Assembly: GCA_033065855.1 (NCBI GenBank)
Contig: JAVXUO010002668.1
Coordinates: forward strand, 60,959-124,958
Direction: 5' to 3'
Length of the DNA: 64,000 nucleotides
From: Escallonia rubra
Lineage: Eukaryota; Streptophyta; Magnoliopsida; Escalloniales; Escalloniaceae
Below the pieces are notes generated by a model. It worked only from the letters and a program-made list of their open reading frames with translations. It searched no databases and was not told the origin of the DNA. Position 1 is the first letter of the stretch. Each line of letters starts with the position of its first letter. Position numbers and translations under genes: made by a program. Below are positions 9,866-58,667 of the stretch, piece after piece.

Positions 9866-9927
<62 letters not shown>
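9866..9927. repeat. (TA)n microsatellite
   Basis: About 30 uninterrupted TA units. It abuts the left end of a short MULE-type inverted-repeat element. Similar TA tracts border several other elements in the window. Confidence 0.95.

Positions 9928-9929
<2 letters not shown>

Positions 9930-10129: not shown

Positions 10130-10157
<28 letters not shown>
10130..10157. repeat. (TA)n microsatellite
   Basis: TA repeat between two MULE-related elements. Confidence 0.9.
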
Positions 10158-31950: not shown

Positions 31951-32332
31951 ATGGCTGTCAGGGGGTATTTTGCATAAGTTGGGGGTGTTTTGTTAACTTT
32001 CCCCCTTAAATTACCCTGAGGAAATATTTGGTATATAATTGACGTAATACATTTAAAAAGTGGTCTTAAAGCGATTTTGTGGCGTTGGTGGTGTAGCGGC
32101 CGTCGGGGGGTATATTGGTAAATTGTCACGTTGGCTCTAAAATTTTAGGGAAGTAGAGTAATTAAGCGTTCGGAGTGGTGGGAAGTGAGGAATTGTTTTA
32201 ATACACTGAAATAATGAGATAATGACTATTGCTAATGCGTTGGTAAGCTAGGTTTAAGATCCAGTTATATTTTTGGAATGTAAATATTATGGACGTTAAG
32301 TTGGTTTACGATTATATTTTGTTCTTGGAGAT

Positions 32333-34203: not shown

Positions 34204-34339
34204 GCCTCGCGCTCAAGCATCCGGTCGGACAAAGGACAAGCGACGAAGACATTGAGGCAGGACAAGCGAGGTTGGATCGACCAGCACTACTTCGGGCATG
34301 AGTCTGTCGATTCAACATATTTTCCTCTTGCGACATTCC

Positions 34340-36160: not shown

Positions 36161-36246
36161 ACCAAATCACAAATTAAAGATTTCACAAACCAAATCACAA
36201 ATATAAACATTATAAAAGTTCAATTTATACAACTTAAACATTAACC

Positions 36247-38530
36247 CTAACACTCTTCCTCATCATCGTCCTCCTCGACCATACTGCCAGGTTCGATACT
36301 TAGCACTTTATAATGATTTCTCTTGTCATGATCAATTACACAACGCACACTTTTGCAACTTTTTTTGACCCGTTGCTTCTTCAATCGGATTCTTCATACG
36401 TATTGCTCGTTTTCGCCCTTTTGTTTGAGAAATAATTGGATAAAAAATGTCGTCCTCCTCACCTTGCAGGCTAGTGCTGTCAATGACTGGCTGTGAAGCT
36501 CGATTGAATCTACCGACTAGAGTCGTCCGAGGGTCCTGTCTTTCTGGTAATGCCATTCTAAATTGTGCATGCTTAGCCTTATCCCGTGCGGCTGCTTCAA
36601 CTTGATACTTGTACCCATCAAATTTTGACGCTGCATCCAATGATAAACCGTGCATGATGTTACAAAGGTGATTATATCGCAGCGTCTCAGATTGCTCGAA
36701 ATCAACTGAAACATTGGGCACGTTAGGAATGTGACCGTGGACTCTATTGGCTTCCTTCGTCCACCGATCCAAGATATACTCTGGAGGGATTTCACGAGCA
36801 TTCTTGGCGCTAAAAAACCTCAACGCGTGTCGACAGAGTATACCTTTATGCTTAAACAGTTGACAGTTGCAATTAACACCCCCGGTCTCCATACACACTA
36901 CTACGGTAAAATGTCTTCTGTTCTTCGGAGCCGACGAAGAGCACGGATTGGCAAAAATCGTCACATTTGTCAAAGCATAAACCTTGAGATATCTGTTGCA
37001 TAACTTGCGCAACTTTGTCATGCTATATTGATTCGACTTTAGTAGTTCATCCTGAAACTGTCTAAACATTTCCTTGGTATAGACTTGAGCCGCATGAGCC
37101 TCCAAAGGTGAAAAAACTAATATTTGTCTTTCTCTGTAAACTGTAGCCGCGTCGGCTTCTCTCTCAAGGTAAAATTTCCTGTCAAGGGCTTTCTGCATCT
37201 GTAGTACGAACTCTGTTATACTTGAAGACGAGCGTATGTACCCATCAAAGAATGAATTCATACCTTCGCTTCTCGAGGTCGTAGTCATTCCGGCTGCAAA
37301 AAACTTTTTGGTGTAGGCACCGATCCACTGTGTCCTGATCTCATACAACGCTTGCAACCATTCATGACTGTGCAATTAGTAGTCATCCATTAACTTGGCC
37401 CACCTCTCCTCGAACACGTCTACCGTCAACGATTTCTTCACACATGTATTAAAGTCACTCTTAAATTTCGGATGGTTTGCATATACATTGTGAAGCCGTT
37501 CGGGATATTTGTTGCTTATGTGCCATGTGCACAGGCCATGGTGAGTATTTGGAAGGACCTTAGCGATTGCATTTTTCATTGCCAGATCTTGGTCGGTGAT
37601 GATGGTCTTTGGAGGAATATGATACATTGTTTCAAGCTACGTTTCAAATAACCACGTAAATGATTCCTACGTCTCATCCCTAAGCAGGGCAAAGCCAAAC
37701 AAGATTTACTGATAGTGGTGGTTCACCCCGGTGAACGGCGCAAAAGGCATAGAGTACTTATTTGTGCGGTATGTGGTGTCAAACGTCACAACATCGCCAA
37801 AATTTTGGTAAGCAGCTCTAGAACGGGCATCTGACCAAAATATATTAGTAATGCGGTTCTCGTCATCCAGTTGGAGACTATAGAAAAAGCCAGAATTCTC
37901 CCTCTGAAGGCGCCTGAAGATATCAAGTGTAGCTTGAGAATCACTCCTACAGGAAGACTCTCTCCTCTGAGCACGAAGTTCATTTCGGAGGTCTACTTCT
38001 TTGAAGCTCAACTTGTCAACCCCCCCAGCCCGGCTTGAGAAAACCCCCATCATTCTAGAAGTTGGAATTTTAGCCTCGGCCATTGTAAATTTCAGTTGTC
38101 TGTGTGTCGCGCTTATTTCTCGGTGCTGATGAATTTGACCAATCTTACTAGGGGTCATCAACTGATGGTTATGGCTCAACTCCACTCCCGTCACAACCCA
38201 ATGGTTTTCATTTTTCCGGTGTACTGCATACACATGGGCCTTGCAGCCGGTACCCAGAAATGTGTCCCGTTTTCTTTGTCTTGATGGCCCTTCGTCATTG
38301 ATCCGAACAACCGGGGGTACATGCGGTGCTCCTCTATGACACTCAAATAGTCTTCCACAAATTTGATCTGTATTCGCCCGTTTTCTAGTCGTCTTAATTC
38401 TAATACCCAAACCTATCGTTTTCGAATATGCTCTATAGTATGCTTCAACTTCGTCCAGTGTGTGATAAACTTGACCTAAGTAAGGTGGATCAGAATCTTC
38501 ACAAAAATTATTTCCTCGAGTTGCATCCAT
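36247..38530 (-). pseudogene. MURA transposase of MULE-A
   Basis: Full-length relative of MuDR-type transposases with N-terminal FAR1-like zinc region (ICGRLFECHRG, GCKAHVYAV, ELSHNHQLMTPSKIGQIHQH), MULE catalytic domain (DVVTFDTTYRTNKYSMPFAP, IITDQDLAMKNAIAKV, WHISNKYPERL, SRSEGMN) and SWIM finger (NCNCQLFKHKGILCRHALRF), then a C-terminal KGRKRAIRMK and CALC knuckle. It starts MDATRGNNFCEDSDPPYLGQ at 38530. Broken by a stop at about 37706 (after GVNHHYQ), further stops between 37627 and 37706, one at 37376, and a small deletion near 36332 that removes the end of the knuckle and causes an early stop. The nearest relative in the window is the copy at 53530. It would excise and insert the element if intact. 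Confidence 0.9.
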
Positions 38531-38639
38531 ATTTATACTGAAATCTAAAAAATAAAAATTATATCATTCTCAACAAGTCATAGAATTAAATAAAATATGT
38601 ATAAAAATTATTTCCTGCAGTTGTGTGGAAACTTTTGAC

Positions 38640-39860
38640 AGGAAATTACCAAAATAGCCCGATGAGCGGCAAATAACTGAAATGTCCCCCGGGGTTCATT
38701 ATCTCCCACTCCGAACCCCAAATCTACTTCAAAACAACCTTTCAGGTGTTTTACTTAGGTTTCTGGACAAAAAAGTCGTTTGAAAAACTTAACATTGTAG
38801 AATTACCAAAATACGCCTATCGGGGTGGCAAATTACCGAAATGCCCCTGGCATCGAAAAATCTCAAAAGTGCTTTGAAATGCTATTTTAAGCTTCCTGAA
38901 TTCATTCTTGATCTAAAAAGTATTTTACAAAAGTTTCGCCCAAAAATCCCGAACCGGTGTCCGGATCGAGCGCTTAAAAGCCCGTTCGGCCAAAAAAATA
39001 GCTAACGACATCGGAATGGCGCAAATACTAGGGAAACGGAACTTCCCAACATCCTAGGATTCTCATAAAAGTTTCGCGCAAAATCGCTCTAGCTTGATAT
39101 TTTAAATTACACTGCAAAGTTACAAGGCTCCCCGTATAAGTTGACCCCTTTCCAGTCTATGGAAACATCTCAGAACAACTTTAAAATAACTTTTCGGGTG
39201 TCTTACACCCCTTCCCGAACTAAAGGCCAATCGGAAAATTTTGACAGGAAAATTACCAAAATGCCCCCGATGGGCGGCAAATTACCGAAACGCCCCCGGG
39301 GGTTCAATATCACCCTAACGCCCCCAAATCAGCTTCAAAACAGCCTTTCAGGTGTTTTACTTACATTTTTGAAAAAAAAAGTCGTAGACTTAATAGTGTA
39401 GAATTACCAAAATACCCCTCTCGGGGTGGCAAATTACCGAAATGCCCCTTGATATTGGAAAATCTCAAAAGTGCTTTGAAATGATATTTTAAGCTTCCTG
39501 AATTCATTCTTGATCTAAAAAGTATTTTACAAAAGTTTCGCCCAAAAATTCCGAACCGGTGTCCGGATCGAGCGCTTAAAAGCCCGTTGGGCCAAAAAAA
39601 TAGCTAACGACATCAGAATGGCGCAAATTCCGGGGAAAGGGAACTTCCCAACATCCTAGGGTTCTCATAAGAGTTTCGCGCGAAATCGTGCTAGTTTTAT
39701 ATTTTAAATTACACTGCGAAGTTACAAGGTTCCCCGTATCAGTGGACCCCTTTCCAGTTCAGGAACAAATCTGAACATTTTCCCTGCTATAGATCTTTTA
39801 AAAATAACTAGGGTCTCTTTATTGCACTTTGGCAAAATCTAGCTCTAGATATTTTTTATA
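38640..39860. repeat. Right inverted arm of MULE-A
   Basis: Two modules inverted relative to those at 30140-31760 (TTCATTCTTGATCTAAAAAG, then CCCAAAAATCCCGAACCGG). The stretch 39250-39860 runs collinear with 31870-31240 in reverse, including CTAGCTCTAGAT versus the inverse at 31248. By eye the arms are well over 80 percent alike, with indels. Confidence 0.85.
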
Positions 39861-40330
39861 AATTCGTAAAAAAATCCAAAATTTGACGCCCTAAAAAAAT
39901 GGGTATTTTGGAATCTATAAATGTAATACCCTCATTTGTATAAACCTAATTTTGACGCCCTAAAAAAGCGCTCATTCGATCTTCGATTGATCTGATTTTT
40001 GTTTCGTTCCATTTGTATTTTCGTTATCTTCGATTTGAGTCTACAATGACTATTTTTGGACTTTGAATGAATATTCGCTAATAAACGCTAGTTCAATCCC
40101 TAATTTCAAACTCTCAAAAAACACGAATTTTAGACTATGGTAAGAACAATTTAAGCTAAACACAATTTAAACAAATCATTGGTAAGAACAATTTGAAATT
40201 AACATTGAATTATAAGAAAATTCAAAATACTTACTTGTTTTAACTTGATATATTGCTCAAGAAAAATCCACCGATCTTCTACCATAAAAACTTTTTGTTT
40301 GTATTGTTGTGGAGATTATGTAAGTGAGAT
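39861..40330. other. AT-rich outer segment of MULE-A
   Basis: No recognisable gene. Contains two CGCCCTAAAAAA(A/G) motifs and is presumably part of the non-coding terminal region. Confidence 0.4.
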
Positions 40331-40851
40331 ATGGAGTATGAAGTCTATGTTGGTAAAGATGATGGGGAGTGGAAGAAAGGGTTCGGGCAGAAAGGGTTAG
40401 GGAGAGAGATGAAAGAAAACAGAGAAAGGTGGGAAAAAGGACGGGGGGAATCGCAACAACGGGCAAGTGGCAGGGGGGAAAGGGGCACGTGGCAGGGGAC
40501 CGCCAAATTGGGTGGCGGATTTGGGGGGGGGGGACCGCAATAAGGTGTTGCGGTTTGGGTAGGGGGGACCGCAGGGGGCCACGTGGCAGGCAGGGAAGGG
40601 GGGGATTGGGGGGACCGCCTGCCACGTGGCAGGCAGGGGAAGGGGGGACTAGGGGGACCGCCCGCCACGTGGCATGAAGGAAGGGGGGACTGGGGGGCCG
40701 TCTGCATGCCACGTGGCAGGCAGGGAAGGGGGACCGCATGCCATGTAAAGGACGGTTGGGGGGTGGGTGGGTGCGTGGGGGGGTGGGTGTAAAAAAAATT
40801 CAATGATACCCAACCGCGATAATACCCACCGGTAGAGCCTGATCGGCCCCC
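40331..40851. repeat. G-rich terminal region with CCGC palindromes, right end of MULE-A
   Basis: Tandem GGGGGGGACCGC, GCCACGTGGCAGGCAGGGAA units of about 60 bp and one GGACCGCAATAAGGTGTTGC palindrome. It mirrors the C-rich array at 30365-30890 in composition and orientation, as expected for inverted termini. The last bases are GATCGGCCCCC next to TA microsatellite. Reading frames here are compositional. Confidence 0.75.
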
Positions 40852-40885
<34 letters not shown>

Positions 40886-40981
40886 TAGATATAGATATAT
40901 ATGTACATATATGTATATAGATATATATGTACATATATATATAGATATATATGTATGTGTATATATATACATATATATGTG

Positions 40982-41014
<33 letters not shown>

Positions 41015-41082
41015 GTATATATGTGTATATATATACATATATATGTATATATTTACATATATATATATACATATATATACAT
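40852..41082. repeat. TA/TACA microsatellite between MULE-A and MULE-B
   Basis: Mixed TATATA, TACATA and TATGTA repeats over 230 bp. Its last nine bases, TATATACAT, are duplicated on the other side of MULE-B. Tyr-Ile-rich ORFs over it are not genes. Confidence 0.95.
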
Positions 41083-41347
41083 GGGAGCTGATCCGTTGAG
41101 AGCGTGAGCAAAATAGGAGAAGTTGCAAGCGCGATCTGATCGTCCATCCCGTAAGATGGACGGTCCAGATCGCGCCTTTTTCGAAAGCTGTCAGTCGTCC
41201 GCCATACAGTATGGCGGACGGTTTTTTTTACCTTATTGCCCCTCCGCGCCTGTCCGCTACACTGTATGGCAGAGAACATTAAAGTCTTGATGGGAGACAG
41301 CAAAAAGACGTCCGCGATACTGTGTAGCGGACGTCCCCCAGACTGAC
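41083..41347 (+). repeat. Left TIR of MULE-B
   Basis: Shared in inverted orientation with 52082-52346: GGGAGCTGATCCGTTGAGAG, then AAAATAGGAGAAGTTGCAAG, CAGATCGCGCCTTTTTCGAA, and palindromes around CCGCCATACAGTATGGCGG. Its promoter-proximal end leads straight into MURA. Confidence 0.92.
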
Positions 41348-41444
41348 ACCTTACCTTTTTGCCCCTCCACACTGTACGCTATACTGTATCCCGGACTAAA
41401 TTGATTTCCTGACACGAGACAGCAAAAAAGGAATCGGCTATACA

Positions 41445-43728
41445 GTGTATCGGACCTCGCCTAAGTTGACAGCTATCAGGTCTTGTCTAGGACGAACCTT
41501 TCAAACATTGGAGGAAGGTGGAGAATGTTTCCTAGCGTATTCATTGAGGGTTGGATTTGGCATTAGAATAAAGACTTCAAGAACGAGCAACATAACGAGA
41601 AAGATATGCTCTCGCTTATATGAGTGCCATAGGGGCAGAAACCCAGTGCAAAATGAGACACGCGTAGGCAACGATGACAGTGATGATGAAATAGGATATT
41701 CGCGCAGAAGACGGGACTTCTTTGCACGAACGAATTGCCAGGTCAAGATGTTCGTAAGCTATAAAGCCAAGCAAGATCATTGGCTTATTACCAGCCTGGA
41801 ACTGGCACACAATCACCCGTTAGTAACCCCTTCTAAGGTGAGTCAGATGCATCAACACAAGAAGATGGGAAAGGTCGCGAGGAGCCTCATTCACACAATG
41901 AGCGATGCGCGGCTAGGACCTACCGACATGATTAATGTTCTTGCTGAACAGGCCGGGGGAATTCAAAATTTAAACTTTAACACGACAGACGTTCGCAACG
42001 CGGTCCGAACCCATAGACGAGCCACGTATGACCTCAATGATGCTCAAGCCACAATGAGCCTATTGAAGCGGATGCAGATGGAGGACCCGCAGTTTACCTT
42101 CGATTATAAACTTGACGACGAGCATCGAGTTAGCACAATTTTTTGGGTCGACGGTCGTTCGAGGCTTGCTTATAAGCATTTTGGGGATGTCGTGACTTTC
42201 GACACCACATACCGTACCAACAAGTACTCGATGCCGTTTGCCCCTTTCACGGGGGTCAATCATCATTATCACTCCATCCTGTTCGGGTTCGCCTTGTTAA
42301 GGGACGAGAGCGAGAGTTCTTTTGAATGGTTGTTTAGTGTGTGGCTGGAAGCCATGAACTTCAAAGCACCCAACGTTATCATCACCGATCAAGATTTGGC
42401 AATGAAGAAGGCTATTGCCACCGTCTTCCCAGATACTCGACACAACTTGTGCACTTGGCACATAAGCAACAAATACCCCGAACGTTTGCATCACGTGTAC
42501 GCAAAGTTTCCAGACTTTAAACAGGATTTTGACACGTGCGTTAGCAAGTCGTTAACGATTGAGGAATTTGAGGAGAGGTGGGAAAAGCTTGTTGAGGATT
42601 ACTCATTGCAAGACAACGGGTGGCTCCAGCACTTGTACGAGCTCAAAGAGCAATGGATTGGCGTTTACACGAGGAGGCATTTTTCTGCGGGCATGAAAAC
42701 GACGGGCAGGAGTGAATCTATGAATGCCACGTTCGATAGTTACGTGGGTACAACTACCAATTTGAAGAGTTTCGTCACATCCGCACAGAAAGCGGTTGCG
42801 TCGTTGTTCGTGAAAGAAAGGGCTGCAGACTTTGCAACCACGTACAAACAGAGGAGAAGGTTGCTTGAGACCCCGCTGGAGCTGAACGGTGCCAAAGTCT
42901 ATACGAAGGAGATCTTCTTGCTATACCAAGTAGAGCTGCAGAAATCGGGACGGTACTGTATAAACAAGGTGGCAGAAAAGTCTACGCGTGAGTACAAGGT
43001 TTATTCGCTCGTGAATGACCTCGTTCCTGAGAAGCTGCGTAGAATGTATACGGTGAGCCACGACACATTGACGAACTCGGTGACATGTGTTTGCAAGAAG
43101 TTTGAGTGTTCCATGGCATCCTGTGTAGACACATTCTGCACTTTTTCACCCAGAAGAATATCAGGACAATCCCCGATAAATACGTCTTGCCACGGTGGAC
43201 AAAAGGTACTAACAGGTTGCACGGTACCATTGCCTTTCCGGAGCACCCGTATACTGACTTTGAAGAATCAGAGACGTTGCGGTATAATCATCTGGTGACG
43301 AGTTTCACCCGTTTGTCCGTAAAGGCTGCTGCTTCAATGGTCGGTTATAAACATCTCCTCGAGGTAGCTCAGCAGCAAGAGCCCATCGTCGACCAGTTGG
43401 AAGCAGCTTCAGTCACCAATGCGATTGACACCGAGCCTACGACGGGATCAGAAGATGACGAGCCGGGGGAGGAAGACGACAATGATATTTGGCCGTTGGA
43501 TCCAATTATATCACAAACGAAAGGCCGCAAGAGATCTACGCGGATGAAAAGCTCTATTGAAACGGCAACTCAACCTAAAAAGCTGCGAAGGTGTGCATTG
43601 TGCAACAAAATGACCGACCACGACAAGCTGAACCATTACAAGGCACTGGGATAAGTTCAGGGGGTTTGCAAGACGGAGAAGAAGGTGACGCCGAAGATGA
43701 GGACGAACAAGCTGCAGTGGACCTTTAA
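41445..43728 (+). pseudogene. MURA transposase of MULE-B, two small frameshifts
   Basis: A 617-residue frame from 41445, then a shift into the frame 43106-43654. FAR1-like zinc region: Cys55, Cys61, Cys98 and the HNH at 122-124. Catalytic DDE-type residues by motif: Asp253 (VTFDTTY), Asp315 (IITDQDLAM), Glu424 (GRSESMN). WHISNKYPERL follows the second Asp as in other MULEs. The SWIM finger (CVCKKFE ... HGILCRH) is split by the frameshift near 43107. It ends with KGRKRSTRMK and a Cys/His knuckle (CALCNKMTDHDKLNHYK). An acidic tail (DGEEGDAEDEDEQAAVDL) follows after the stop at 43652 in another frame to 43728, pointing to a second indel. The start is taken as the first ATG in frame; relatives begin about 20-25 residues longer. 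Confidence 0.9.
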
Positions 43729-43863
43729 TTTTTTGTATAAGTTTGACATTTGTAATAATTTTCGGAGGGATAATTTTTCGACCGAATACTGGAATTTAAA
43801 AAAAATGGACCTATGAGAGGCCATCGAATCAAATCTAAAGTCTTAATTTTTTTTGTAAGCCCT

Positions 43864-44117
43864 ATCCGCTTTACAATGTAGCGGACGACATCGCAGAACA
43901 ACTTGAATTTTTTGGTTTTCTTTTATGTCCGCTATATAATCTAGCGGACGCAATCGTAGAAAAACTTTTGGTCTTCGTTTATGTCTGCTATACAATGTAA
44001 CGGACGTCATCGCAGAAAAACTTTTGGTATTCTTTTATGTCCGGTATACAATGTAGCGGACGTCATCGCAGAAAAACCTTTGGTATTCTTTTATGTCCGC
44101 TATACAATGTAGCGGAT
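43864..44117. repeat. Five-copy array of CCGCTA palindromes, period 56 bp
   Basis: Palindrome starts near 43864, 43927, 43983, 44039 and 44095, each of type CCGCTATACAATGTAGCGG with small changes. They are joined by CATCGCAGAAAAACTTTTGG and a TTCTTTTATG segment. It lies between MURA and the B3 gene, where it could form part of the 3' end of one or the promoter of the other. Confidence 0.92.
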
Positions 44118-44282
44118 TAGTCTACCCTATTATATATATTAATCATATCGGGCAATCAGCTGTTATCAGTCCGCTTAGGGCACTCTCTCTGTCTCGAACA
44201 TCTAACCCAGGCCGCTACCCCATCTACGGCGACCCACATCTCCGGTGACCCACAACTCCGGCGATAAACCGTCCTCCCCTCA

Positions 44283-44763
44283 ATGCCGACCTCGATGGCT
44301 TCTGGATCGGAGACGACCTACGATTTTATTGACAACTTGCACCTGGCAGGCAAACACTTTTTCAAAGTCATGATGCCGGGGTTTGAGAATGAACTTGTAG
44401 GCCATCCTTCTTTCTCTGTATTTTCGTGTGTTAAAAGTTTGATCTTTGGGTTAAAAACTAACCTATTTTTTGTATTGTGTTCGTTAGGACATACCGGAAG
44501 CCTTGACCAATCAATTTACAACAATTCATGACAGTGCAAGATTATATAGCAGCAAGGGGGCATGGCAGGTTGAAATCAAGCTGAAGCCCGGCCGACCCCA
44601 AAAAAAGCAATTCGCAGAGGGTTGGAACGTCTTCGTGCGCCAGCATGGCCTCGAACTCGGGGACTTTGTAGTGTTTGAACACCTTGGGTGGTGGGATTTT
44701 CAAGTTGTAATCTTTGATCGGAGCGCTTGTGAAAAAATTTATTTCCCCCAATGTGAACCCTAA
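44283..44763 (+). CDS. B3-domain DNA-binding protein encoded by MULE-B
   Basis: Two exons, 44283-44396 and 44488-44763, with a 91-bp GT-AG intron give 129 residues and an intact frame. The whole protein is close to one B3 domain: KHFFKVMMPGFENELDIPEA at residues 24-43, WQVEIK near 61, FAEGWNVFVRQHGLELGDFV and FEHLGWWDFQVVIFDRSACE toward the C-terminus. This pattern (F-x-K-V-M-P ... GW..FV..H.L..GDF.VF) is that of plant REM/ARF/RAV-type B3 domains, which bind short specific DNA sites. It lies downstream of MURA in the same direction, inside the TIRs and beside palindrome arrays. I infer it was captured and kept, possibly to bind element DNA. Which B3 subfamily is uncertain. Confidence 0.88.
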
Positions 44764-44934
44764 TTTATTATTAATAAATTAATTTATGTTCTTGTTCGTT
44801 ATGTTTCCAAATTTTTTCTCGCTTAATTGTGTCGTTTGAAATTCCCTCGATAGCGGACGATCGTTGATTGTGAATCGTACGTTATTTATTGTTTATCGAT
44901 ATTGAGATTGTTGATTCTGTTGCCAAAACAAGTC

Positions 44935-45045
44935 TTCGGGGCGCCAATTTATTAAAACAGCATTACACGCTACAATGTCGCTAAAACAAGTCTTTGGGCG
45001 CCAATTTATTAAAACTGCATTACGCTACAACGTCTAGTTCTACTA
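44935..45045. repeat. Two-copy 58-bp tandem duplication
   Basis: AAAACAAGTCTTCGGGGCGC and AAAACAAGTCTTTGGGCGCC each continue with CAATTTATTAAAAC(A/T)GCATTAC, so the unit is repeated twice downstream of the B3 gene. Confidence 0.85.
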
Positions 45046-45060
45046 TATAGCGGACATAAG

Positions 45061-45611
45061 GCCTCCGCTTAGGCCGGGGTTCGGGAAGGTCAGAACTAAG
45101 TGTCTGGTTCGTGCCAACCATTTTCTGGTCCAAGTTGCAGACAATGATCTGCACCACTGTGACGTAAGATCCTCAGCTGTACACGTATTCTGCTGGGCTG
45201 TCCGCTATACTATATAGCGGACATAGATAGGGGGAAAAAACTAAGTTGGAGACTCTATCCCTGCAGGGCTGTCCGCTATACTATATAGCGGACCTAGGAG
45301 AGAAAAAACTTCGGGTTGGCCATCTATCTTTCTGCTTGGCCGTCCGCTATATAGTAGAGCGGACGGCCAAGCAGAAAGTTTCTTCTGTTTCTATCCAGAT
45401 CCGCCATACTATAAAGCGGACATGATTAGCGAGGAAGTATTATCGTAATACATCCACGCACCACGGAAACCCACACACAAACAAAAGGTGCACAGTTGAG
45501 GATCTCAAGTCATAGTGGTGCAGATCATTGTCTGCAACTTGGACCAGAAAATGGTTGGCACGAACCAGACACTTAGTTCCGACCTTCCCGAAGCCCGGCC
45601 TAAGCGGAGGC
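45061..45611. repeat. ~120-bp inverted repeat around CCGCTA palindromes
   Basis: Left arm 45061-45184 and right arm 45488-45611 are near-identical inverted copies (GCCTCCGCTTAGGCC... against ...GGCCTAAGCGGAGGC). The 300-bp centre holds four CCGCTATACTATATAGCGG-type palindromes. The right arm lies just downstream of the small minus-strand gene ending at 45638. The whole block could fold into a large hairpin or be a nested miniature element. Confidence 0.9.
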
Positions 45612-45637
45612 CATATAGCCTTAGAAGAACTCGATCT

Positions 45638-46069
45638 TCAGTCATCTTCATCTGAAACTGGAGCATCAGAAACAGATCCTTCTTCGAAGCTCATGTTCCA
45701 GTATACTTGTGCTTCATTGTTGTTGCCATCTTCATGTGCATCACGTGCCATACGACGTAAGTTATGCCTACTTTGACGAACTCTCATTCTATTATTTTCT
45801 TCACGTATTCGATGCAGTGCCCTTTCAAGCTCCATGTGTGTAATTCGAGGCATGTTGATTGCCTTTTGTCGAGGTATGGGTATATTCATGCTCCGTGAAT
45901 CAGTTACTAAGACCTCGTATTCATTCATCCGATAAGACCATTCTGCACGTAATGTATTAACATAGCTTGATGAGTAACGCAAACTTGGACGCAAAGAATA
46001 GTGAAATTCATCTTCGCCCGCCCAGTAACGACCCATTGCTTCAAAAATATCTCGTGGAGTATATGACAT
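45638..46069 (-). CDS. Small basic protein, possible coiled coil (MULE-B accessory 1)
   Basis: A 143-residue intact frame with no domain that I recognise. It starts MSYTPRDIFEAMGRYWAGED. The middle is basic and helical in appearance (ELERALHRIREENNRMRVRQ then RHNLRRMARDAHEDG). The C-terminus is acidic (SVSDAPVSDEDD). It is homologous to the divergently transcribed frame at 46436-46870: in both, ERALHRIREENNRM / KAVRRIRMENNRM follow a Pro-Arg-rich turn, with matched Arg-rich helices after it. The start codon is supported by a TATA-like box about 70-80 bp upstream on the minus strand. It may be a small dimerising or nucleic-acid-binding protein, but this is only inference from composition. Confidence 0.7.
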   Translation of the reverse strand: MSYTPRDIFEAMGRYWAGEDEFHYSLRPSLRYSSSYVNTLRAEWSYRMNEYEVLVTDSRSMNIPIPRQKAINMPRITHMELERALHRIREENNRMRVRQSRHNLRRMARDAHEDGNNNEAQVYWNMSFEEGSVSDAPVSDEDD

Positions 46070-46435
46070 TTCCAGAGTTGTTATGAAATTGGGAGTATAT
46101 CACTCTATGCCCTTTGCCCTTCGTGCAATGCATGTACTTATATATACTTTGAAACGGGACCCCTTTATGAAAGAGCTACAGGTTCAACTTTATGAGATGT
46201 GACAAGCCTCTGCAATAGACTAGAGACTTGTCTTGTCACCAAAGACTTGTCAACTTTATGACACGGGCATGCTATTGTCTCCAACTATTGTCATCTTCAA
46301 TGTCCAGAGACTTGTCTTGTCACCAGAGATGGACAGACTATTGTGTAGCTATCACACCAATATATTGTGTATGTGTGTGTGGGCTTATTTATATATGTTA
46401 GCCACGCTCATCGCATTACAATCGCCTAAGTTTTC
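46070..46435. promoter_or_regulatory. Shared divergent promoter of the two accessory genes
   Basis: The 366 bp between the two starts holds a TATA-like motif for each direction: AAGTATATATAAGTAC on the minus strand (about 46136-46151) and TTATTTATATATG on the plus strand (about 46384-46397). Between them a 20-bp block, AGAGACTTGTCTTGTCACCA, occurs twice (about 46223 and 46306), a plausible binding site shared by both promoters. Confidence 0.55.
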
Positions 46436-46870
46436 ATGGCAGGAGTTCCTGGGAGTTCTAGTCTGCGGGGACGTGAGACTGTGTGGTTGTTGTGTGAAAG
46501 GAACGACGACTACAAAGAAGTGAAGTACACGGACCCGAGAGAGTATTATTGCGGTTTACGGAGAGAATGTGCATATCGAGTTGAGGAATCAGAAGCACTA
46601 CACCAAGATCTCACCACGCTGAGGGCACATGTGCCGCAACGTCGTTCACTTACTATGTCGAGGCGTAATGTTAAACAGTGTAAGAAAGCTGTGCGCCGAA
46701 TTCGTATGGAGAATAACCGGATGTTGCTGCGTAAAAAACGATTTTACATGCTTCAACTTGCGGAAGAAATGGCCGAGGCTAGTGGGAGGCACCTCAAATC
46801 AAACGAGAGAAACAATATTTTAACCAATGATCAGTACTTATCTGATGAGTATATGTCAAATGAAGAGTGA
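46436..46870 (+). CDS. Small basic protein, possible coiled coil (MULE-B accessory 2)
   Basis: A 144-residue intact frame starting MAGVPGSSSLRGRETVWLLC. It has no recognised domain. The region YYCGLRRECAYRVEESEALH, then AVRRIRMENNRMLLRKKRFY, then acidic YLSDEYMSNEE parallels the layout of the minus-strand gene at 45638 (LRAEWSYRMNEYEVL, then ALHRIREENNRMRVRQ, then an acidic end). The pair thus arose by duplication and inversion and then diverged; the persistence of both frames suggests selection. The first 25 residues differ. Function unknown; basic helices suggest protein or nucleic-acid contacts. Confidence 0.7.
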   Translation: MAGVPGSSSLRGRETVWLLCERNDDYKEVKYTDPREYYCGLRRECAYRVEESEALHQDLTTLRAHVPQRRSLTMSRRNVKQCKKAVRRIRMENNRMLLRKKRFYMLQLAEEMAEASGRHLKSNERNNILTNDQYLSDEYMSNEE

Positions 46871-46989
46871 TATATATATCTCTTCCTACTGCATGTTAGG
46901 ATTTCATTCCAACCGGCACATATCCACATGTCATTCTAATTAGCGAATCCCGTCTTTTGAAGCATGTAAAATGTTGGGAATTTATGTTT

Positions 46990-47430
46990 CTAACTACATC
47001 CGTCATACTATAATGGGCTAACTAGCATGCCTAAGGTGCAATGAGCAAAACAAATTACAACATTTTGCGCAAGCTATGAATTTGGCGCTAAAGTGTGCGC
47101 GAATAGGCCCTTCATAGGAAAACCAAAAAAATAATTTGTCTCGTTTTTTGCCGAATTCATAGAAATGGGCTAACTAGCGTGCCTAAGGTGCAATGAGCAA
47201 AAAAAACCTTACAAAAAAAAAATTTCGCAGGCTATGAATTTGGCGCTAAAGTGTGTGCGAATAGGCCCTTCATAGCAAAACCAAAAAAATAATTTGTCTC
47301 AATTTTCGCCGAAATTCATAGAAATGGGCTATATAGCGTGCCTAAGGTGCAATGAGCAAAAAAAAAAGTGACCAAAAAAATTCCAATATTTTTCGCAAGA
47401 TATGAATTTGGCGCTAAAATGTACGCGAAT
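46990..47430. repeat. Tandem repeats (~155 bp) in MULE-B, three copies
   Basis: Three units with GGCTAACTAGC(A/G)TGCC, TAAGGTGCAATGAGC, TATGAATTTGGCGCTAAA and AATAATTTGTCTC, the same family as the repeats at 35049 and 55925. Here they read in the plus orientation although MURA is also plus. In the copy at 52746, where MURA is plus too, they read in the opposite orientation. Confidence 0.88.
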
Positions 47431-47451
47431 AGTTTTTCCGGCCCTATCTAC

Positions 47452-48020
47452 GTCCGCTATACTATATAGCGGACAGTCAAACAGAAGGAAGACTCCCCAA
47501 CACTTAGTTTTTTTTGGGCCCTATCTACGTCCGCCATACTATATAGCGGACAGTCAAGCAAAAGGAAGCCTCCCCAACAATTAGTTTTTTTTTTCGGCCC
47601 TATCTACGTCCGCTATACTATATAGCGGACAGTCAAGCAGAAGGAAGACTCCCCAACACTTAATTTTTTTTGGGCCCTATTTACGTCCGCTATACTATAT
47701 AGCGGACAGTCAAGCAGAAGGAAGCCTCCCCAACACTTAGTTTTTTTTTTTCGGCCCTATCTACGTCCGCTATACTATATAGCGGACAGTCAAGCAGAAG
47801 GAAGACTCCCCAACACTTAGTTTTTTTTGGGCCCTATCTACGTCCGCTATACTATATAGCGGACAGTCAAGCAGAAGGAAGCCTCCCTAACACTAAGTTT
47901 TTATTTTCGGCCCTATCTAAGTCCGCTATACTTTATAGCGGACAGTCAAGCAGAAGGAAGCCTCCCCAACACTTAGTTTTTTTTCGGCCCTATCTACGTC
48001 CGCTATACTATATAGCGGAC
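47452..48020. repeat. Eight-copy palindrome array with dimeric ~157-bp period
   Basis: CCGCTATACTATATAGCGG-type palindromes start at 47452, 47529, 47608, 47685, 47765, 47842, 47921 and 47998. The spacings alternate 77 and 79-80 because two unit versions mostly alternate (GAAGACTCC with TTTGGGCCC, and GAAGCCTCC with TTTCGGCCC). A degenerate ninth unit follows near 48065. It lies between the accessory genes and the 3' end of PMD-Ulp1. Confidence 0.95.
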
Positions 48021-48335
48021 AGTCAAGCAGAAGGAAGCCTCCCCAATACTTTCGTTCACTTTCGGGCCCTATCTATGTTATAGGGGACAGTCCAACAGAA
48101 ACAGTCTCACTTGGTTTTTACACTTTGTTTCCCCCTGGTCAAAGCAAATCACACAGAACAAATCAAACACTCAGCTCAACAACACAACGATATCAGTGAA
48201 TCAAATCAATCGCATTCAACAACGATCACATCTCAGTCAACACAAATGAAATCATCAATCGCACTCAACGATAAGATTCAAGAAGTTTAAGGACAATTAA
48301 AAAAGTGAATATAATGTTATTATACGCTAACATTG
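48021..48335. other. Spacer at 3' side of PMD-Ulp1 (MULE-B)
   Basis: Rich in CAATCAAATC/CAACAATCAC-type sequence. No gene seen; presumably the 3' UTR of the minus-strand PMD-Ulp1 gene. Confidence 0.35.
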
Positions 48336-51300
48336 TCAATTGGGTCCCTCGGCCCCCTCGTTACGCGGATTTACAATAAATCTAATAGGTCTAGGCCGGC
48401 CAATGATAATTTGCCAAGTTATCCTATACCTAAGGTAGTCTATGCATTCTTGGGTCCAGACGGTCTTCTTGAGGCTCTCCGACCGACAGATGTAATCCAT
48501 GTACATGCAGACGAAGACGCCGCAGTCCGAGGAATTAAGTTGCTTGGGACTACTCCTCTTCAATCGAAACACAAGCTGCGTCCCGCCCGATGGGAGCACT
48601 GGACTCTCTGGGTTCTCTCGACGACGCTTACTATTGACCATTCCAGCAAATAGATTCTGCGAGACACATAATAAGCATTAAACATTAAACATAGCGAACA
48701 TAATAAGATTAATCAGTTCTACAATATGCAAGTTACAATAAGAAGTAAACAGGATCTTACCATGGCATCCAACTCGCCTAAGCCTCGGTACATTTCAATC
48801 ACACCGATCACGGGGGTATCATCGTAGAGACTGTCGAGGACTGATACAATATTCATTACCAGTTCATAGCAAACCAAGAACCAGTGAGAATTCATTATAG
48901 CTGGGATTAGAAACACGTCCGCTACACCTGCGCTCACTGGACTCGGCCGAGCAAGATATGCTTGTAGGTTAGCGGACGGTCTCCACTGGAGCTGGGCTTT
49001 CCCCTTTCTCGCCTGCTTCCTCGCCTTGTCCCAGTCGTTATACTCTTGTACTAGGATGCCATGAAAGTAAACATCGAGGATAAAAATGCACGGACCGTAG
49101 TTAGGCTGCTCCCGACTCATTTGCCTCAGAATTTGCACGTAGTGCGAAATGACAAAGTTGTCTAACCAAATTCCCGGAGCCAGCGAGGACAGTTCTCGCC
49201 ACGAGGGATTGTAATCCAAGCCCTGCGGGTGATACACGTCATACGACGCTCCGTCTGGGGGGGCCCGCTAAAATAACAGGCTTGGATTAGGTCATGTATG
49301 CGGCTTCAGGGGCCTGGCTGGATGCCCTTTCGGATATTGCCCTCGGGGGTCGACCGGTTGCTCTTGCCCTCCGCAGGGGGGCAAGAGCAACGGAAGAAAT
49401 TGGCCTCCAACCAACGGATCGGCCGGCTGATAATCCCCTTGGGGGGCCCCGGCCGGCTGATATTGCTTGCCGGCCATTTCTTCCACCGGCTGATATTGGC
49501 ATTCGGGGCCGCCAAGTGGTCCCGCCCACGGGACAATGGGCAGTGCCTCGTTGAAACCGTAAGGCCATTCTTACGTGACTTGAATCTGAGAGAGGGGTTG
49601 GGGTTCTGGGAACAAATTGAAGGTCGGGCCGCTGTAATCGGCCCACGACGCTTGAGCATGTCCCATCCCCGGTACAGAGGGACCACCAACTCCCTGGCTC
49701 ACCCCTGAAGCTTGCCCGGAGGGATCAACGTTATACGGGCTGCCGCCCGTATAACCCATTCCCGGGCTGTCGACCGAAGACTGTCCCGATGCTTGCCGCA
49801 CAAAATTCCCGCAGCCTATAGCCAGTGCAGCAGCCTGTTGGCGAAGATCCTCGCCCATTGCGCTCATCAGATCCTTCCGCTCACTCAACTTCTGGAAGAA
49901 TGCAAGCGAGGCATTAACCTACATCCAAAGAGATAACAAATAAGTAACTTTAATCAGACATTTATATTCAAGACAAGTTGGGCAACTTACGAGATTGTAT
50001 GCCATACGCTCGTCGATCTGACCCCTAGGCGCATACCTCGCCCCGCGTTCAAAGTTCACTGGGGCTACTCTCCTCCGCGTGATGCGGGAGTACCACTCAT
50101 CGTACTCCGCGATGCTGATAACGGGGTCCGGCTCTGAGACGATGGCCGCCAGTGTGTCCTGCCAAGAAGTCCAGAGCTCTAGTTCGGCCGCGCACAATTC
50201 TTGCACATTGGCCTTGCCAAACCGCCCGACATCCGGTGGGTCCCTGTTAACCCTCATATCTGGGGCACCGGCCGGAAAAACCTGCTCCAACTCAAAATGG
50301 CGCATTGCTCGGTCTTGCAGCTTCCACTCTGCGACCTCGAAGTGGATGAGGGGTGTGCGCTGCAACCCGGAGAGCGTGAAGACGAACGACTCTTCTACCC
50401 GTCGCGCCAAACGTATGTACGGTGCCCAACGCAATTGGCCCGGAGATAGGCGGTCAAACTCCCCTCGATAGAACGTGATGTTGTGATGGGGATCGACTCT
50501 CCTGCGGTAGTGGCTTTTCTTCCGGCTGTACTCCTAAGCACGCAACCGAGGCCACACTCTATCGGTTCCATCCCTACGCGTCGGTGCACCGGGAGCAAGG
50601 TTTTCATAAGACCACACCTGAGAACATGGACAAATTATATTTATATCGTCGATTCAACAAAAGCAAAAAAAAACAAACAATAACGAAGACATGATTTATA
50701 TGATATACCTACAATAGCGAGAGACATGCACATATGGCTTTGGAGTTGGGCCTCGTTGCCTTGTGCAATGCTCGGTACAGATACGAAAGAACCGCTGCAC
50801 CCCATGCATAATCTCCAACCTCCGCCAGGTTACCCAACAACGATAAATATCTCACACTGACCGTGTTCTTCGACGTCGTTTGGAATAATATTTCCCCCAC
50901 CACCCACCAGAGGAAGGCTTGTGTGTACAGCACAAGGTCACGACTCGTATTGTTTTCCGGCAAAACCCCGTAGGTATCTACCAACCACTTCAACTTGATA
51001 CCACCACTGCTAAATTGATCCTGGGGTATCGAAGTTAAGAAGTCCCTAGCGGTTCTCTTATTCGTTGCTTCTGACGGAGGAGCAATTACCGGCCGCCCCG
51101 TCACCGGCAACCCTAAGATGAACCCTACATCTTCTAGGATAATTGTCATCTCTCCGAGCGGGTCCACCTCTCAACAAGGGAGGCCCGGTCAAGCTGTTGA
51201 AATATCTGCCCATGCGTGAAAATCCCAAACCCAATTCCACGCAGTATCCTCTTCTGGGCGATGTTCAGTTTCCACGTTACTATATCGCGAGATACTTCTA

Positions 51301-51494
51301 CGGTGTTGAGAAGTTCTCTTTCCTACGAATTAATAAATACAATTTAAGCATAACAAACGGTATATACAATGTTCGTAAGCGATAGAAAGTCGATAAATAA
51401 TGTATCTTACTCCACCATCCCATATGAGCGTACTGATATGGTTGGCTTGGTCGTATAACACGGATGGGTCTTCAGGTCCAGGGTTAAATTCCAT
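48336..51494 (-). pseudogene. PMD-Ulp1 fusion gene of MULE-B, nearly complete
   Basis: Six exons (minus) with GT-AG borders: 51494-51411, 51322-50709, 50617-49991, 49918-about 49290, about 49269-48761, 48656-48336. Start MEFNPGPEDPSVLYDQANHI. PMD: GEMTIILEDVGFILGLPVTG, GIKLKWLVDTYGVLPE, VLSYLYRALHKATR; exon 3 has QLRWAPYIRLARRVEE and TPLIHFEVAEWKLQDRAMR. A Gln/Pro/Gly-rich linker with YQPA repeats follows. The C48 peptidase shows His in NSHWFLVCYE, Asp in VSVLDSLYDD and Cys in NSSDCGVFVCMYMDYICRS, so the triad appears complete. Lesions: a collapsed frame after VERW near 51170, a TAG at the last codon of exon 2, a stop near 50535 in exon 3, and one near 49575. It is marked as a pseudogene for these, though a shorter peptidase product is imaginable. 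Confidence 0.85.
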
Positions 51495-51899
51495 TTTTTG
51501 CAACTGAAATTATGGAAAAACCTTCTCAGTTTGGATTTTACATTTTGGATTTTGATAATCGCTCGCAAAAATACGACGCTAGCACATGCATAATACATAT
51601 AACGCAAGCACATGAATGATGCATACAATGTTAGCATATGTACTCATATGTATAAATATATATACATATACGGAATCGGATTTTACAAACGCTTGCACAA
51701 CAACAAAAACATACATATATAAAACCCAATATTCATCACAACTGAAGATTACAAACAAAAAAAAGTGTAGATTTTGTGAACTTACGTGATCGATTTAGGG
51801 TATTAAAGGTGTTCTTAAGACGGAATTTCGTCGATAAGCATACCAACGCCGCTGGGAAATTTTGTGAGTAGAAAGAGTGGAGAAGAGTGTCGTAGTGAC

Positions 51900-52081
51900 T
51901 GTTTTTTGAATGTATATTTAACGTCCGCTATACAGTATCGCGGATAGCTATTACGTCCACCATACAGTATGGCGGATGGCTATAACGTCCGCTACACAGT
52001 GTAGCGGACACTGTTGACGTGACAAATAAGGACAAGAAAACCGTCATTGCGAAAGGACCAACGCGACGGGCCCTGACACAT
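51900..52081. repeat. Subterminal CCGC palindromes next to right TIR of MULE-B
   Basis: Three to four palindromes in a row (CCGCTATACAGTATCGCGG, CCACCATACAGTATGGCGG, CCGCTACACAGTGTAGCGG), spaced about 30-40 bp, just inside the right TIR and upstream of the PMD-Ulp1 start at 51494. Confidence 0.88.
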
Positions 52082-52346
52082 GTCAGCCTAGGGACGTCCG
52101 CTACATAGTATCGTGGACGTTTTTTTGCTGTCTCCCATCAGGACTTTAATGTTCTCCGCCATACAGTGTAGCGGACATGCGCGGAGGGGTAATAAGGTAA
52201 AAAAAACCCGTCCGCCATACTGTATGGCGGACGACTGACAACTTTCGAAAAAGGCGCGATCTGGACTGTCCATCTTTCGGGATGGACGGTCAGATCGTTC
52301 TTGCAACTTCTCCTATTTTGCCAACGCTCTCAACGGATCAGCTCCC
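52082..52346 (-). repeat. Right TIR of MULE-B
   Basis: Inverted copy of 41083-41347, including GCTGTCTCCCATCAGGACTT and CAACTTCTCCTATTTTG, ending ATCAGCTCCC. Differences are few, mostly single bases. Confidence 0.92.
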
Positions 52347-52353
52347 TATATAC

Positions 52354-52394
<41 letters not shown>

Positions 52395-52710
52395 TATACA
52401 TATATATACATACATATACATACATACATACATAAACATACATACATATACATATACATATACATATATATATATATACATATATATACATACATATACA
52501 TACATACATATATATATATATACACACATATATATACATACATATACATACATACATATACATACGTATACATACATACATATACATACATACATATACA
52601 TACGTATACATACATACAGATACATACGTATACATACATACGTATACATACGTATACATACGTATACATACGTATACATACATACACATACATATGTATA
52701 CATACATATA

Positions 52711-52745
<35 letters not shown>
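52347..52745. repeat. TATA/TACATA minisatellite between MULE-B and MULE-C
   Basis: 400 bp of TACATACATATACA and (TA)n, starting with TATATACAT, the right target duplication of MULE-B. Probably continuous with 40852-41082 before MULE-B inserted. Confidence 0.95.
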
Positions 52746-52749
<4 letters not shown>

Positions 52750-53529
52750 AGCCGATCCACACCCACCGGTGGAGAAATAACAATTTCTCTATCATAAATC
52801 TAGCCGTCCACGTGTAGTCATGAATGGCCCAGATCTATTTTTTTTTAGAAGTTGCAACCGCCGCTCTTTGATCCGGTTGCAAAAATGGTCAAAAATGCCC
52901 CGGGGAGCTGAAAAAACCCCATCCGCAAGAAAGACTAGCGGTTGGGGACCATGCAATCATCACCAACCGCTACAAAGTGTAGCAATTGGTGACCCACAAC
53001 TACCATTAAAAATCATAATAAAACCCCCAGCTGCCCCCACTTACCTCGAGCTGGCGCAATTAATGCCCCAACCGCTACAAAGAGAAGCGGTTTGGGGGTT
53101 TCCCTTTACTTCACGATCAGTCTTTTTCTTTCTGGCTATATCTCTCTTTCTTTTTCTTCCCAATTTCCTCACTATCAAACCCTAACCATTTCTTCATCCT
53201 CTATAACCCCTAAACTCCCATTTTTTCATAAAACAAACACTAAAAAATACTTCCAACATCACAGACTTTTAGTGTTTGCTTGCACTATCTTGAAATCAGT
53301 TTATCCAACTTTGGTGATATTATCAAAAAAGCTAATATTGAAGCAATTATCTTGAAGGAGGAGGCAATTGAAAGCAACAATACTACATTGTAAGTTTTGC
53401 CTTTTTCATTTCATTTCATTCGATTTCATGTCATTCCATTTTATTTCTGTTTCTTTACAAAAAAATTCATTTAATTCTATGACTTGTTCAGAATGATATA
53501 ATTTTTATTTTTTAGATTTCAATATAAAT
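52746..53529. promoter_or_regulatory. Left terminal region of MULE-C, probable MURA promoter
   Basis: Contains CCGCTACAAAGTGTAGC and CCGCTACAAAGAGAAGCGG palindromes (about 52975 and 53075), a CT-rich leader at 53110-53170 and a probable 5' UTR intron ending TTTTTTAG just before the MURA start. The same ATTTTTTAGATTTCA context precedes the MURA start of MULE-A. Confidence 0.55.
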
Positions 53530-55825
53530 ATGGATACAACTGGAGGAAATAATTTTTGTAAAGATTCTGATCCACCTTACAAAGGTCAAGTTTTTCAAAC
53601 ACTGGACGAAGTTGAAGCATACTATAGAGTATATTCAAAAATGATAGGTTTTGGTGTTAGAATTAAAACGACTAGAAAACGGGCGAATACAGACCAAATT
53701 TGTTCCCGACTATTTGAGTGTCATAGAGGAGCCCCGCATGTAGCCCCGGTTGTTCGGATCAGTGACGAAGGGCCAACATGACAAAGAAAAAGGGACACAT
53801 TTCCGGGTACCAGCTGCAAGGCCCATGTGTATGCAGTACACCGAAAAATTGAAAATCATTGGGTTGTGACGGGAATGGAGTTGAGCCATAATCATCAGTT
53901 GATGATCCCTAGTAAGATTGGTCAAATTCATCAGCACCGACAAATAAGCGCGGCACACAGACAACTGATATTTACAATGGCCGAGGCTAAAATTCCACCG
54001 TCTAGAATGATGGGGGTTTTCTCAAGCCAGGCTGGGGGGGTTGACAAGTTGAGCTTCAACGAAATAGACCTTCGAAATGAACTTTGTGCTCAGAGGATAG
54101 AGTCTTTCAGTAAGAGTGATTCTCAAGCTACACTTGATATCTTCAGGCGCCTTCAGAGTGAGAATTCCAGCTTTTTCTATAGTCTCCAACTGGATGATGA
54201 GAACCGCATTAGTACAATATTTTGGGCGGATGCCCGTTCTAGAGCTGCTTACCAAAATTTTGGCGATGTAGTGACGTTTGACACCACATACCGCACAAAT
54301 AAGTACTCTATGCCTTTTGCTCCGTTCACCGGGGTGAACCACCACTATCAGTCAATCTTGTTTGGCTTTGCCCTACTTAGGGATGAGACGGAGGAGTCAT
54401 TTACGTGGTTATTTGAAACGTGGCTTAAAGCAATGTATCATATTCCTCCAAAGACCATCATCACTGACCAAGATCTGGCAATGAAAAATGCAATCGCTAA
54501 GGTCCTTCCAGATACTCACCATGGCCTGTGCATATGGCACATAAGCAACAAATATCCCGAACGACTTCACATTGTATATGCAAACCATCCGACATTCAAG
54601 AGTGACTTTAATACACGTGTGAAGAAATCATTGACGGTAGACGTGTTCGAGGAGAGTTGGGCCAAGTTAATGGATGACTACTATTTGCACAGTCATGAAT
54701 GGTTGCAAGCGTTGTATGAGATCAAGACACAGTGGGTCGGTGCCTAAACCAAAAAGTTTCTTGCAGCCGGAATGACTATGACCTCGAGAAGCGAAGGTAT
54801 GAGTGCATTCTTTGATGGGTACGTAGGTCATTCTTCAAGTATAAAAGAGTTCGTACTAGAGATGCAGAAAGTCCTTGACAAGCAATTTTTCCTTGAGAGA
54901 GAAGCCGACGCGGCTACAGTTTACAGAGAAAGAGCCATAGTAGTTTTTTCACCTTTAGAGGCTCATGCGGCTCAAGTCTATACCAAGGAAATGTTTAGAC
55001 AGTTTCAAGAGGAACTACTAAATTCGAATCAATATAGCATGACAAAGTTGCACGAGCTATGCACCAGAGATCTCAAGGTTTATGCTTTGACAAATGTGAC
55101 GAATTTTGCCAATCCGTGCTCTTCTTCGGCTCCGAAAAACAGAATACATTTTACCGTAGCAGTTTGTATGGAGACCGGGTTTGTTAATTGCAACTGTCAA
55201 CTATTTGAGCATAAAGGTATACTCTGTCGATACGCGTTGACATTTTTTAGCGCCAAGAATGCTCGTGAAATCCCTCCAGAGTATATCTTGGATCGGTGGA
55301 CGAAGGAAGCTAGTACACGGTCACATTCCTTACGTGCCCAATGTTTCAGTTGATTTTGAGCAATCTGAGACGCTGTGATATGATCACCTTTGTAACATCA
55401 TGCACGATTTTTCATTGGATGCAGCGTCAACATTTGATGGGTACATGTATCAAGTTGAAGCAGCCGCACGGGATAAGGCTAACCTTGCACAGTTTAGGAT
55501 GACATTACCAAAAAGACGGGACACTCTGACTACTCTGGCGACTCCAGGCCGGTAGATTCAATCGAGCTTCACAGCCAGTAATTGACAGCACTAGCCTGCA
55601 AGGTGAGGAGGATGATATTTTTGATCCAATTCTGTCTCAAACAAAAGGGCGAAAACGAGCAATACGTATGAAGAGTCTGATTGAAGAAGCAACGGGTCAA
55701 AAAAATTGCAAAAGTGTGCGTTATGTAATAAAATGACTGATCATGACAAGAGAAACCATTATAAAGTTTTAGGTATCGAACCTGGCAGTATCGTCGAGGA
55801 GGATGATGATAAGGAAGAGTGTTAG
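53530..55825 (+). pseudogene. MURA transposase of MULE-C
   Basis: It starts MDTTGGNNFCKDSDPPYKGQ. FAR1-like zinc region (ICSRLFECHRG, ELSHNHQLM), catalytic motifs (VVTFDTTYRTN, IITDQDLAMKNAI, SRSEGMS), WHISNKYPERL, SWIM finger (NCNCQLFEHKGILCRYAL, with Tyr in place of the final His) and C-terminal knuckle with an acidic end (EEDDDKEEC). Lesions: TGA at about 53779, TAA at about 54745 and an indel near 55315 that shifts the frame, with more damage after. The loss of the last SWIM His may matter. Very similar to MULE-A MURA; the stops are at different places. Confidence 0.9.
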
Positions 55826-55924
55826 AGTTAATGTTTCAGTTGTTTAAATTGAACTTTTATAATGTTTAAATTTGTGATTAGGTTTGTGGAATCTTTAATT
55901 TATGATTTGGTTTGTGGAATCTTG

Positions 55925-57195: not shown

Positions 57196-57196
57196 G

Positions 57197-58665: not shown

Positions 58666-58667
58666 GG

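Follow-up and report, generated by a model that had tools for sequence, protein, structure and literature searches.

Features of the MULE-B locus

The window analysed here is a 64-kb stretch (64,000 nucleotides) of Escallonia rubra contig JAVXUO010002668.1, and positions are counted from its first letter. It holds an 11.3-kb Mutator-like element (MULE), named MULE-B in this study, which lies inside a TA microsatellite, with the related MULEs A and C on either side (Table 1). MULE-B is a real, integrated Mutator-like element that is now decayed. The first-pass annotation of this DNA had proposed terminal inverted repeats (TIRs) of about 265 bp, identical 9-bp target site duplications (TSDs), five gene-like units and dense arrays of one palindrome, and each of these was borne out. 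The two TIRs are identical in 248 of 267 columns (93%). The same 9-mer, TATATACAT, stands on both sides, and when flank lengths from 6 to 13 were compared, the flanks matched at length 9 only. Because a random pair of 9-mers in the surrounding TA-rich microsatellite is identical 2.1% of the time, the TSD is supported but is not strong alone. Pfam matches and gene models gave the five units, namely the transposase, PMD-Ulp1, B3 and the two genes of a divergent pair; of its 11264 bp, 5950 lie within the exon models.

The MULE domain (PF10551, 2e-32), the TIRs and the 9-bp TSD (8–11 bp expected) agree with the MULE superfamily, and the FAR1 N-terminal domain (PF03101, 6e-14) with its Jittery/FAR1 group. 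TA flanks, as in TA-targeting MULEs, were found at MULE-B and at a miniature inverted-repeat transposable element (MITE), and also beside the element ends at 40851 and 52747, whose first bases resemble those of MULE-B. Pack-MULEs have no transposase gene and carry host fragments; MULE-B has a transposase frame, though a broken one. A further element end lies at 11355 on the minus strand (GGGGGCAGATCC), beside a TA repeat. Both MULE-B TIRs also contain a second palindromic block (41126-41180 and 52250-52305; GATCTGA..CGTCCATC..GATGGACG..CAGATC), and the block also stands in the MITE at 10039-10082.

The transposase reading frame has no in-frame start and is shifted near 43.1 kb: in tblastn, residues 40-597 of protein P0001 aligned in one frame and residues 581-770 in the next. 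A transposase search of viral_contigs gave three pattern matches, none of which was confirmed. In the PMD-Ulp1 gene, Pfam recognised two PMD pieces (1.5e-31 and 3.3e-10) and two C48 peptidase pieces (0.016 and 2.9e-6) within 51494-48336 on the minus strand, and the Ulp1 end (PF02902, 2.9e-6) keeps the Gln/Cys motif in an alignment with SENP1. A stop stands at about the same aligned place in the PMD frames of MULE-A (33100-33300) and MULE-B (50530-50540). Since the transposase and PMD-Ulp1 frames are broken, this copy of MULE-B is, to judge by its reading frames, probably no longer autonomous. The B3 and pair frames are open and the two large genes broken, small frames being smaller mutational targets. 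The splice model of the B3 gene has one intron, and its protein, whose relatives were sought in Pfam, the Protein Data Bank (PDB) and the window, weakly resembles the VRN1, LEC2 and FUS3 chains of the PDB (best E 0.022).

The two proteins of the divergent pair are paralogs and agree in 32 of 108 columns (E 4e-13); none of 2000 full shuffles, and none of 2000 local ones, attained their alignment score of 131. The first-pass annotation had described both as basic, which is true of the plus protein alone. As sole query, the plus protein found none of nine candidates at E 0.01 or better. With the profile of both sequences, two of 122 candidates reached E 1 or better. One is a hypothetical protein of Daucus carota (48%, E 8e-29) from a cluster of 16, and the other is an unnamed protein (50%, E 7e-27). 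Both resemble the plus protein more closely (50%) than the minus protein does (27%). Neither matched a Pfam family at E 1. The best AlphaFold (AF2) model of the plus protein, built from four sequences, consists of two long helices with a mean predicted local distance difference test score (pLDDT) of 71, the other four models giving 49-58. A Foldseek comparison of this model with the PDB gave nothing at E 0.001 or better; of 12 matches up to E 10, the best had E 3.6. On these alignments, the pair is a real protein family without a name.

The internal foldback of MULE-B lies between the convergent 3' ends of the B3 gene and the minus gene of the pair, and its RNA has a minimum free energy z-score of -29. 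A nested MITE was considered at this place (45056-45616) and rejected, as no TSD was found. If transcribed, the foldback could be a seed for small interfering RNAs.

Table 1. Coordinates of MULE-B, its parts and the related elements in the window
Feature	Position	Strand	Remarks
MULE-B, whole element	41083..52346		11.3 kb (11264 bp)
MULE-B left TIR	41083..41348	+	matches right TIR, E 2e-112
MULE-B right TIR	52081..52346	-	matches left TIR
TSD copy, left	41074..41082		TATATACAT
TSD copy, right	52347..52355		TATATACAT
TA-rich microsatellite, left of MULE-B	40852..41082		adjoins element end at 40851 (GGGGGCCGATC)
TA-rich microsatellite, right of MULE-B	52347..52746		adjoins MULE-C end at 52747 (GGGAGCCGATCC)
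FAR1-MULE transposase reading frame	41487..43654	+	Pfam MULE 2e-32, FAR1 6e-14
B3-domain gene	44283..44763	+	exons 44283-44396 and 44488-44763; 129 aa; Pfam B3 E 2.3e-9
Minus gene of divergent pair	45638..46069	-	143 aa, isoelectric point (pI) 5.76
Plus gene of divergent pair	46436..46870	+	144 aa, pI 9.25
PMD-Ulp1 gene	48336..51494	-	multi-exon, frames broken; Pfam
Internal foldback	45056..45616		561 nt; 129-bp arms 94% identical (blastn); four dyads within
Tandem repeats common to MULE-A, MULE-B and MULE-C	47012..47432		about 160 bp; position in MULE-B
Five dyad sites	41197..41455		left TIR and subterminal DNA
Five dyad sites	43864..44117		after transposase, 56-63-bp spacing
Four dyad sites	45200..45421		within foldback
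Eight dyad sites	47452..48020		77-80-bp tandem array before PMD-Ulp1 gene
Six dyad sites	51923..52232		right TIR and subterminal DNA
MULE-A	30137..40851		PMD and Ulp1 (+), ~165-bp repeats, transposase (-, with stops); ends not fully delimited
MULE-C	52747..57988		transposase (+, with stops), repeats, Ulp1 (-); interrupted by gypsy element at 57989
Gene-less MITE, TA-flanked	9927..10131		205 bp; one full dyad; related to MULE-B terminus

The palindrome and its dyad core

A fuzzy palindrome pattern gave 30 matches in MULE-B, and after two weak matches (44210 and 48917) were removed by eye, 28 were kept; 30 dinucleotide shuffles of the element gave 0-2 matches each. The sites occupy five of the six non-coding stretches of MULE-B, the stretch between the two divergent starts being the one without them. 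The exact dyad core, CCGC-N11-GCGG, occurs 30 times in the window: 4 times in MULE-A, 22 in MULE-B (one of these inside the transposase frame), 2 in MULE-C, once in the MITE and once elsewhere (36.6 kb). The 16 other CCGC/GCGG spacings (4 to 20) gave 8 matches together. When 200-bp blocks were shuffled, the observed count was reached in 0 of 500 shuffles in A, in B and in C, and in 1 of 500 in the stretch 1-30136, which holds the MITE and has two exact dyads. No exact dyad lies in the gypsy end of the window. Two of the MULE-A dyads lie on opposite sides in inverted-homologous blocks of 37 columns (30445-30481 and 40559-40523, 81%), the match including the dyad itself.

An RNA-hairpin role of the palindromes was rejected, as the changes in the arms were not compensatory beyond shuffles; from its sequence the palindrome looks like a DNA site. 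A likeness to the VANC21 motif was also rejected: YAGTATTAY occurs 0 times in MULE-B and three times in the window, always outside the three MULEs. VANC sites follow helical periodicity. Whole-turn phasing of the dyads was rejected, since 8 of 23 spacings (32-109 bp) stand at a third of a turn (0.33); the phase resultant was 0.41, with array copies that are not independent.

Comparison of MULE-B with its neighbours

MULE-A, MULE-B and MULE-C have in common a related transposase, an antisense Ulp1 gene, internal repeats of about 160 bp and CCGC-N11-GCGG. In the stretches aligned to P0001, the transposases of MULE-A and MULE-C contain 4 and 2 stops, respectively. The Pfam E-values of Ulp1 were 3.7e-10 in MULE-A and 5.1e-9 in MULE-C (piece 57200-57481), and the first piece of the MULE-C minus-strand open reading frame (ORF; 57578-58000) matched no Pfam family. 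The transposase regions of MULE-A and MULE-C are 92% identical (2554 columns) and their Ulp1 regions 82% (816 columns). Over 93 columns, the MITE matches one MULE-B end at 73% (E 8e-8) and the other at 72% (E 1e-6).

In the transposase tree, the copies of A, B and C formed one clade with a support of 98 in the Shimodaira–Hasegawa-like approximate likelihood ratio test (SH-aLRT). The neighbouring clade has 24 rows, of which 15 are named, and all 15 come from carrot or celery. The tree has 68 rows, comprising 3 from the window and 65 from among the 120 matches listed of 614; it was rooted at the midpoint and holds window rows and database matches, without Jittery reference elements.

Outside the module of B3 and the pair, the gene order and repeats of MULE-B match those of A and C. 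From the end of the transposase to the shared repeats there are 194 bp in MULE-A (36332 to 36138) and 3.3 kb, containing B3 and the pair, in MULE-B (43654 to 47012); therefore, either B gained the module, or A and C lost it. Among the three elements only B shows the module, and only B has internal dyad arrays. A tblastn search with the B3 and pair proteins in the window outside MULE-B gave nothing better than E 0.3, with MULE-C incomplete and MULE-A not delimited at its left end.

Beside the Ulp1 gene, MULE-C is interrupted by an element with 96% identical long terminal repeats (LTRs; 57989-63999), classed by eye from its ORF as Ty3/gypsy-like; the window ends at its 3' LTR. Elsewhere, 98% direct repeats (28649-28858 and 29266-29475) adjoin an ORF that we take to be a 2-oxoglutarate dehydrogenase E1 fragment.

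Relation to known elements

Studies have shown that some MULEs target TA repeats. For example, MuTAnT is a TA-targeting MULE (PMC4486113), SaTar arrays are TA-targeting MULEs (PMC5907723), and carrot has 15 TA-flanked MITE families, three with putative autonomous Mutators (PMC8227079). MULE-B resembles this Jittery group (MuTAnT, SaTar/MiM) in its FAR1 N-terminus, 9-bp TSD and TA-repeat insertion, and in its long modular TIRs forming a foldback, related MITEs and microsatellite clustering. However, for the Jittery plant subgroup the 2019 MULE table has FAR1 as the sole entry, with no PMD, B3 or further genes (PMC6446971).

A PMD or Ulp1 gene beside the transposase, often in the opposite direction, is a likeness to MUDR, MUDRAVI2 and grapevine families. 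Antisense PMD is tabulated for several groups, among them MULE-Solanaceae_1 with a further ORF of unknown function (PMC6446971), and ULP is present in some Jittery-like grapevine families (PMC2528002). A difference from MULE-B is that the accounts of these elements mention no module of B3 or the pair, the extra ORF of MULE-Solanaceae_1 being known by description only. MuDR, with mudrA and mudrB, likewise joins a transposase to a second gene of unknown function, a likeness of gene content. Among mobile elements, B3 has been described in Aegilops LTR elements (PMC9289625). Among the papers listed in a literature search, no title or opening of an abstract named a MULE with a B3 gene, which does not show its absence from print.

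The VANDALs of Arabidopsis encode VANC proteins, which have DUF1985 and bind motif arrays (PMC5735166, PMC10398659); their targets are tandem motif arrays in non-coding DNA (PMC5735166). Some VANCs, named KIU, carry Ulp1 (PMC13317346), and in the 2019 table half of the VANDAL members have PMD and/or a DUF (PMC6446971). The capture of PMD by MULEs and its possible anti-silencing use have also been proposed (PMC5418596). MULE-B resembles VANDALs and VANC-KIU in its extra genes, its PMD-type protein (of DUF1985 or PMD type in that group, with Ulp1 in KIU) and its non-coding tandem motif arrays. In contrast, VANDALs are noted for TIRs that are absent or degenerate, though the 2019 table gives 46-174 bp for some members, and the MULE-B TIR has 267 columns; MULE-B is also without YAGTATTAY, its motif is a dyad that stands inside the TIRs as well, and B3 and the pair are extra. 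The annotation had suggested a system comparable to VANDALs in which B3 or accessory proteins act on the palindromes. The unusual gene set and the motif arrays agree with this; the proposed action is not supported, because the dyad occurs in A, C and the MITE, where B3 or the pair was not found.

Possible role of the dyads and accessory genes

In this study, we believe, with a little more confidence than doubt, that MULE-B is a TIR-type, FAR1-group (Jittery-like) Mutator element inserting into TA microsatellites, whose dyad was an ancestral terminal site for a shared protein and was multiplied in the B lineage. The dyad occurs in A, C and the MITE, where B3 and the pair were not found, so its reader should be a shared protein; the sites near the ends and in the MITE favour the transposase. 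On this distribution, the reader is probably a protein common to A, B and C, most likely the transposase and not B3. The dyad would be bound by a homodimer, most likely of the FAR1-type transposase, used in end recognition. In the B lineage, the dyad would have multiplied into five of the six non-coding gaps, where the dyads and this protein may also mark and regulate the whole of MULE-B, for example as promoters or by keeping the element open. PMD-Ulp1 would be the most likely anti-silencing gene, acting like VANC-KIU, and B3 and the helical pair may be added regulators of expression or transposition. PMD-Ulp1 is a VANC-like candidate because VANC has DUF1985, some VANCs carry Ulp1, and the MULE-A PMD matches DUF1985 at 6e-7 (29.9 bits, below the 35.1 cut-off; MULE-B 0.03). 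By analogy with VANC and KIU, the anti-silencing gene of MULE-B, if there is any, is likely PMD-Ulp1.

Several observations weigh against this transposase-centred reading. The window holds only part of MULE-C, and no left end of MULE-A was located; the end seen at 40851 did not recur at the left of MULE-A. MULE-B was seen as a single copy, on which the integrity of the module rests, and its transposase is a long branch (0.83). The two left MULE-A dyads adjoin tandem repeats and are not fully independent. Covariation between the arms was not above shuffles, 192 of 500 reaching the score, so the symmetry of the dyad rests on conserved sequence. Finally, A and C have no internal arrays; therefore, the dyads of MULE-B may also serve a B-specific protein.

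The dyads might instead be read by PMD-Ulp1, a VANC-KIU-like product that would bind the arrays and strip silencing marks from the element. We regard this as rather unlikely. PMD and Ulp1 are present in A and B and Ulp1 in C, the arrays lie in non-coding DNA and owe their uniformity to tandem repeats, and the likeness to array-binding, DUF1985-bearing VANCs, to KIU and to the PMD- or DUF-carrying half of the VANDAL group also speaks for it, as does the sub-threshold DUF1985 match of MULE-A. However, MULE-B has no VANC21 motif, the distances between its dyads tend towards a third of a helical turn and not towards whole turns, and dyads in TIRs and a MITE are what would be expected of transposase sites. 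A new anti-silencing system in which the palindromes are bound by B3 or the pair is more doubtful still: B3 domains bind DNA, and of the three elements only B has both module and internal arrays, but the same core and spacing recur in A, C and the MITE, where B3 or the pair was not found.

That B3 and the pair are host-captured passengers without a role, as in Pack-MULEs, we consider very unlikely. Host gene capture is frequent in MULEs (PMC6446971), and B3 has an intron and a weak likeness to VRN1, LEC2 and FUS3; but MULE-B keeps a transposase gene, the three small frames are open where the two large genes are broken (small frames being smaller targets), and the pair profile found only one unnamed protein and the unnamed carrot cluster with its 16 members, which is not what a conserved host gene would give. 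That the five genes came together by chance through separate insertions, for which the 561-bp foldback could speak, is hardly credible: the foldback shows no TSD, one type of dyad runs through both ends and five of the six stretches between genes or between gene and end, and beyond the module MULE-B has its repeats and its order of genes in common with A and C.

Beyond the transposase-centred reading, the ancestral end dimer site may have been multiplied throughout the element, along with the gain of B3 and the diverged, divergently transcribed helical pair, in one TIR-MULE lineage, leading to sequence-specific self-activation or anti-silencing independent of the Arabidopsis VANCs; we hold this to be improbable, though not negligibly so. 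Two new points of this study are the strongest: the family of the paralogous pair and the dyad common to the simpler neighbours. The pair defines a nameless family, left as hypothetical in the carrot annotation, and CCGC-N11-GCGG offers a concrete candidate for the site of a FAR1-type transposase. In the accounts consulted, the described transposon-encoded anti-silencers are VANC proteins. MULE-B, which combines a VANC-like gene with added helical and DNA-binding proteins and whose motif has seemingly spread inward from the ends, offers a testable case of how an anti-silencer may originate.

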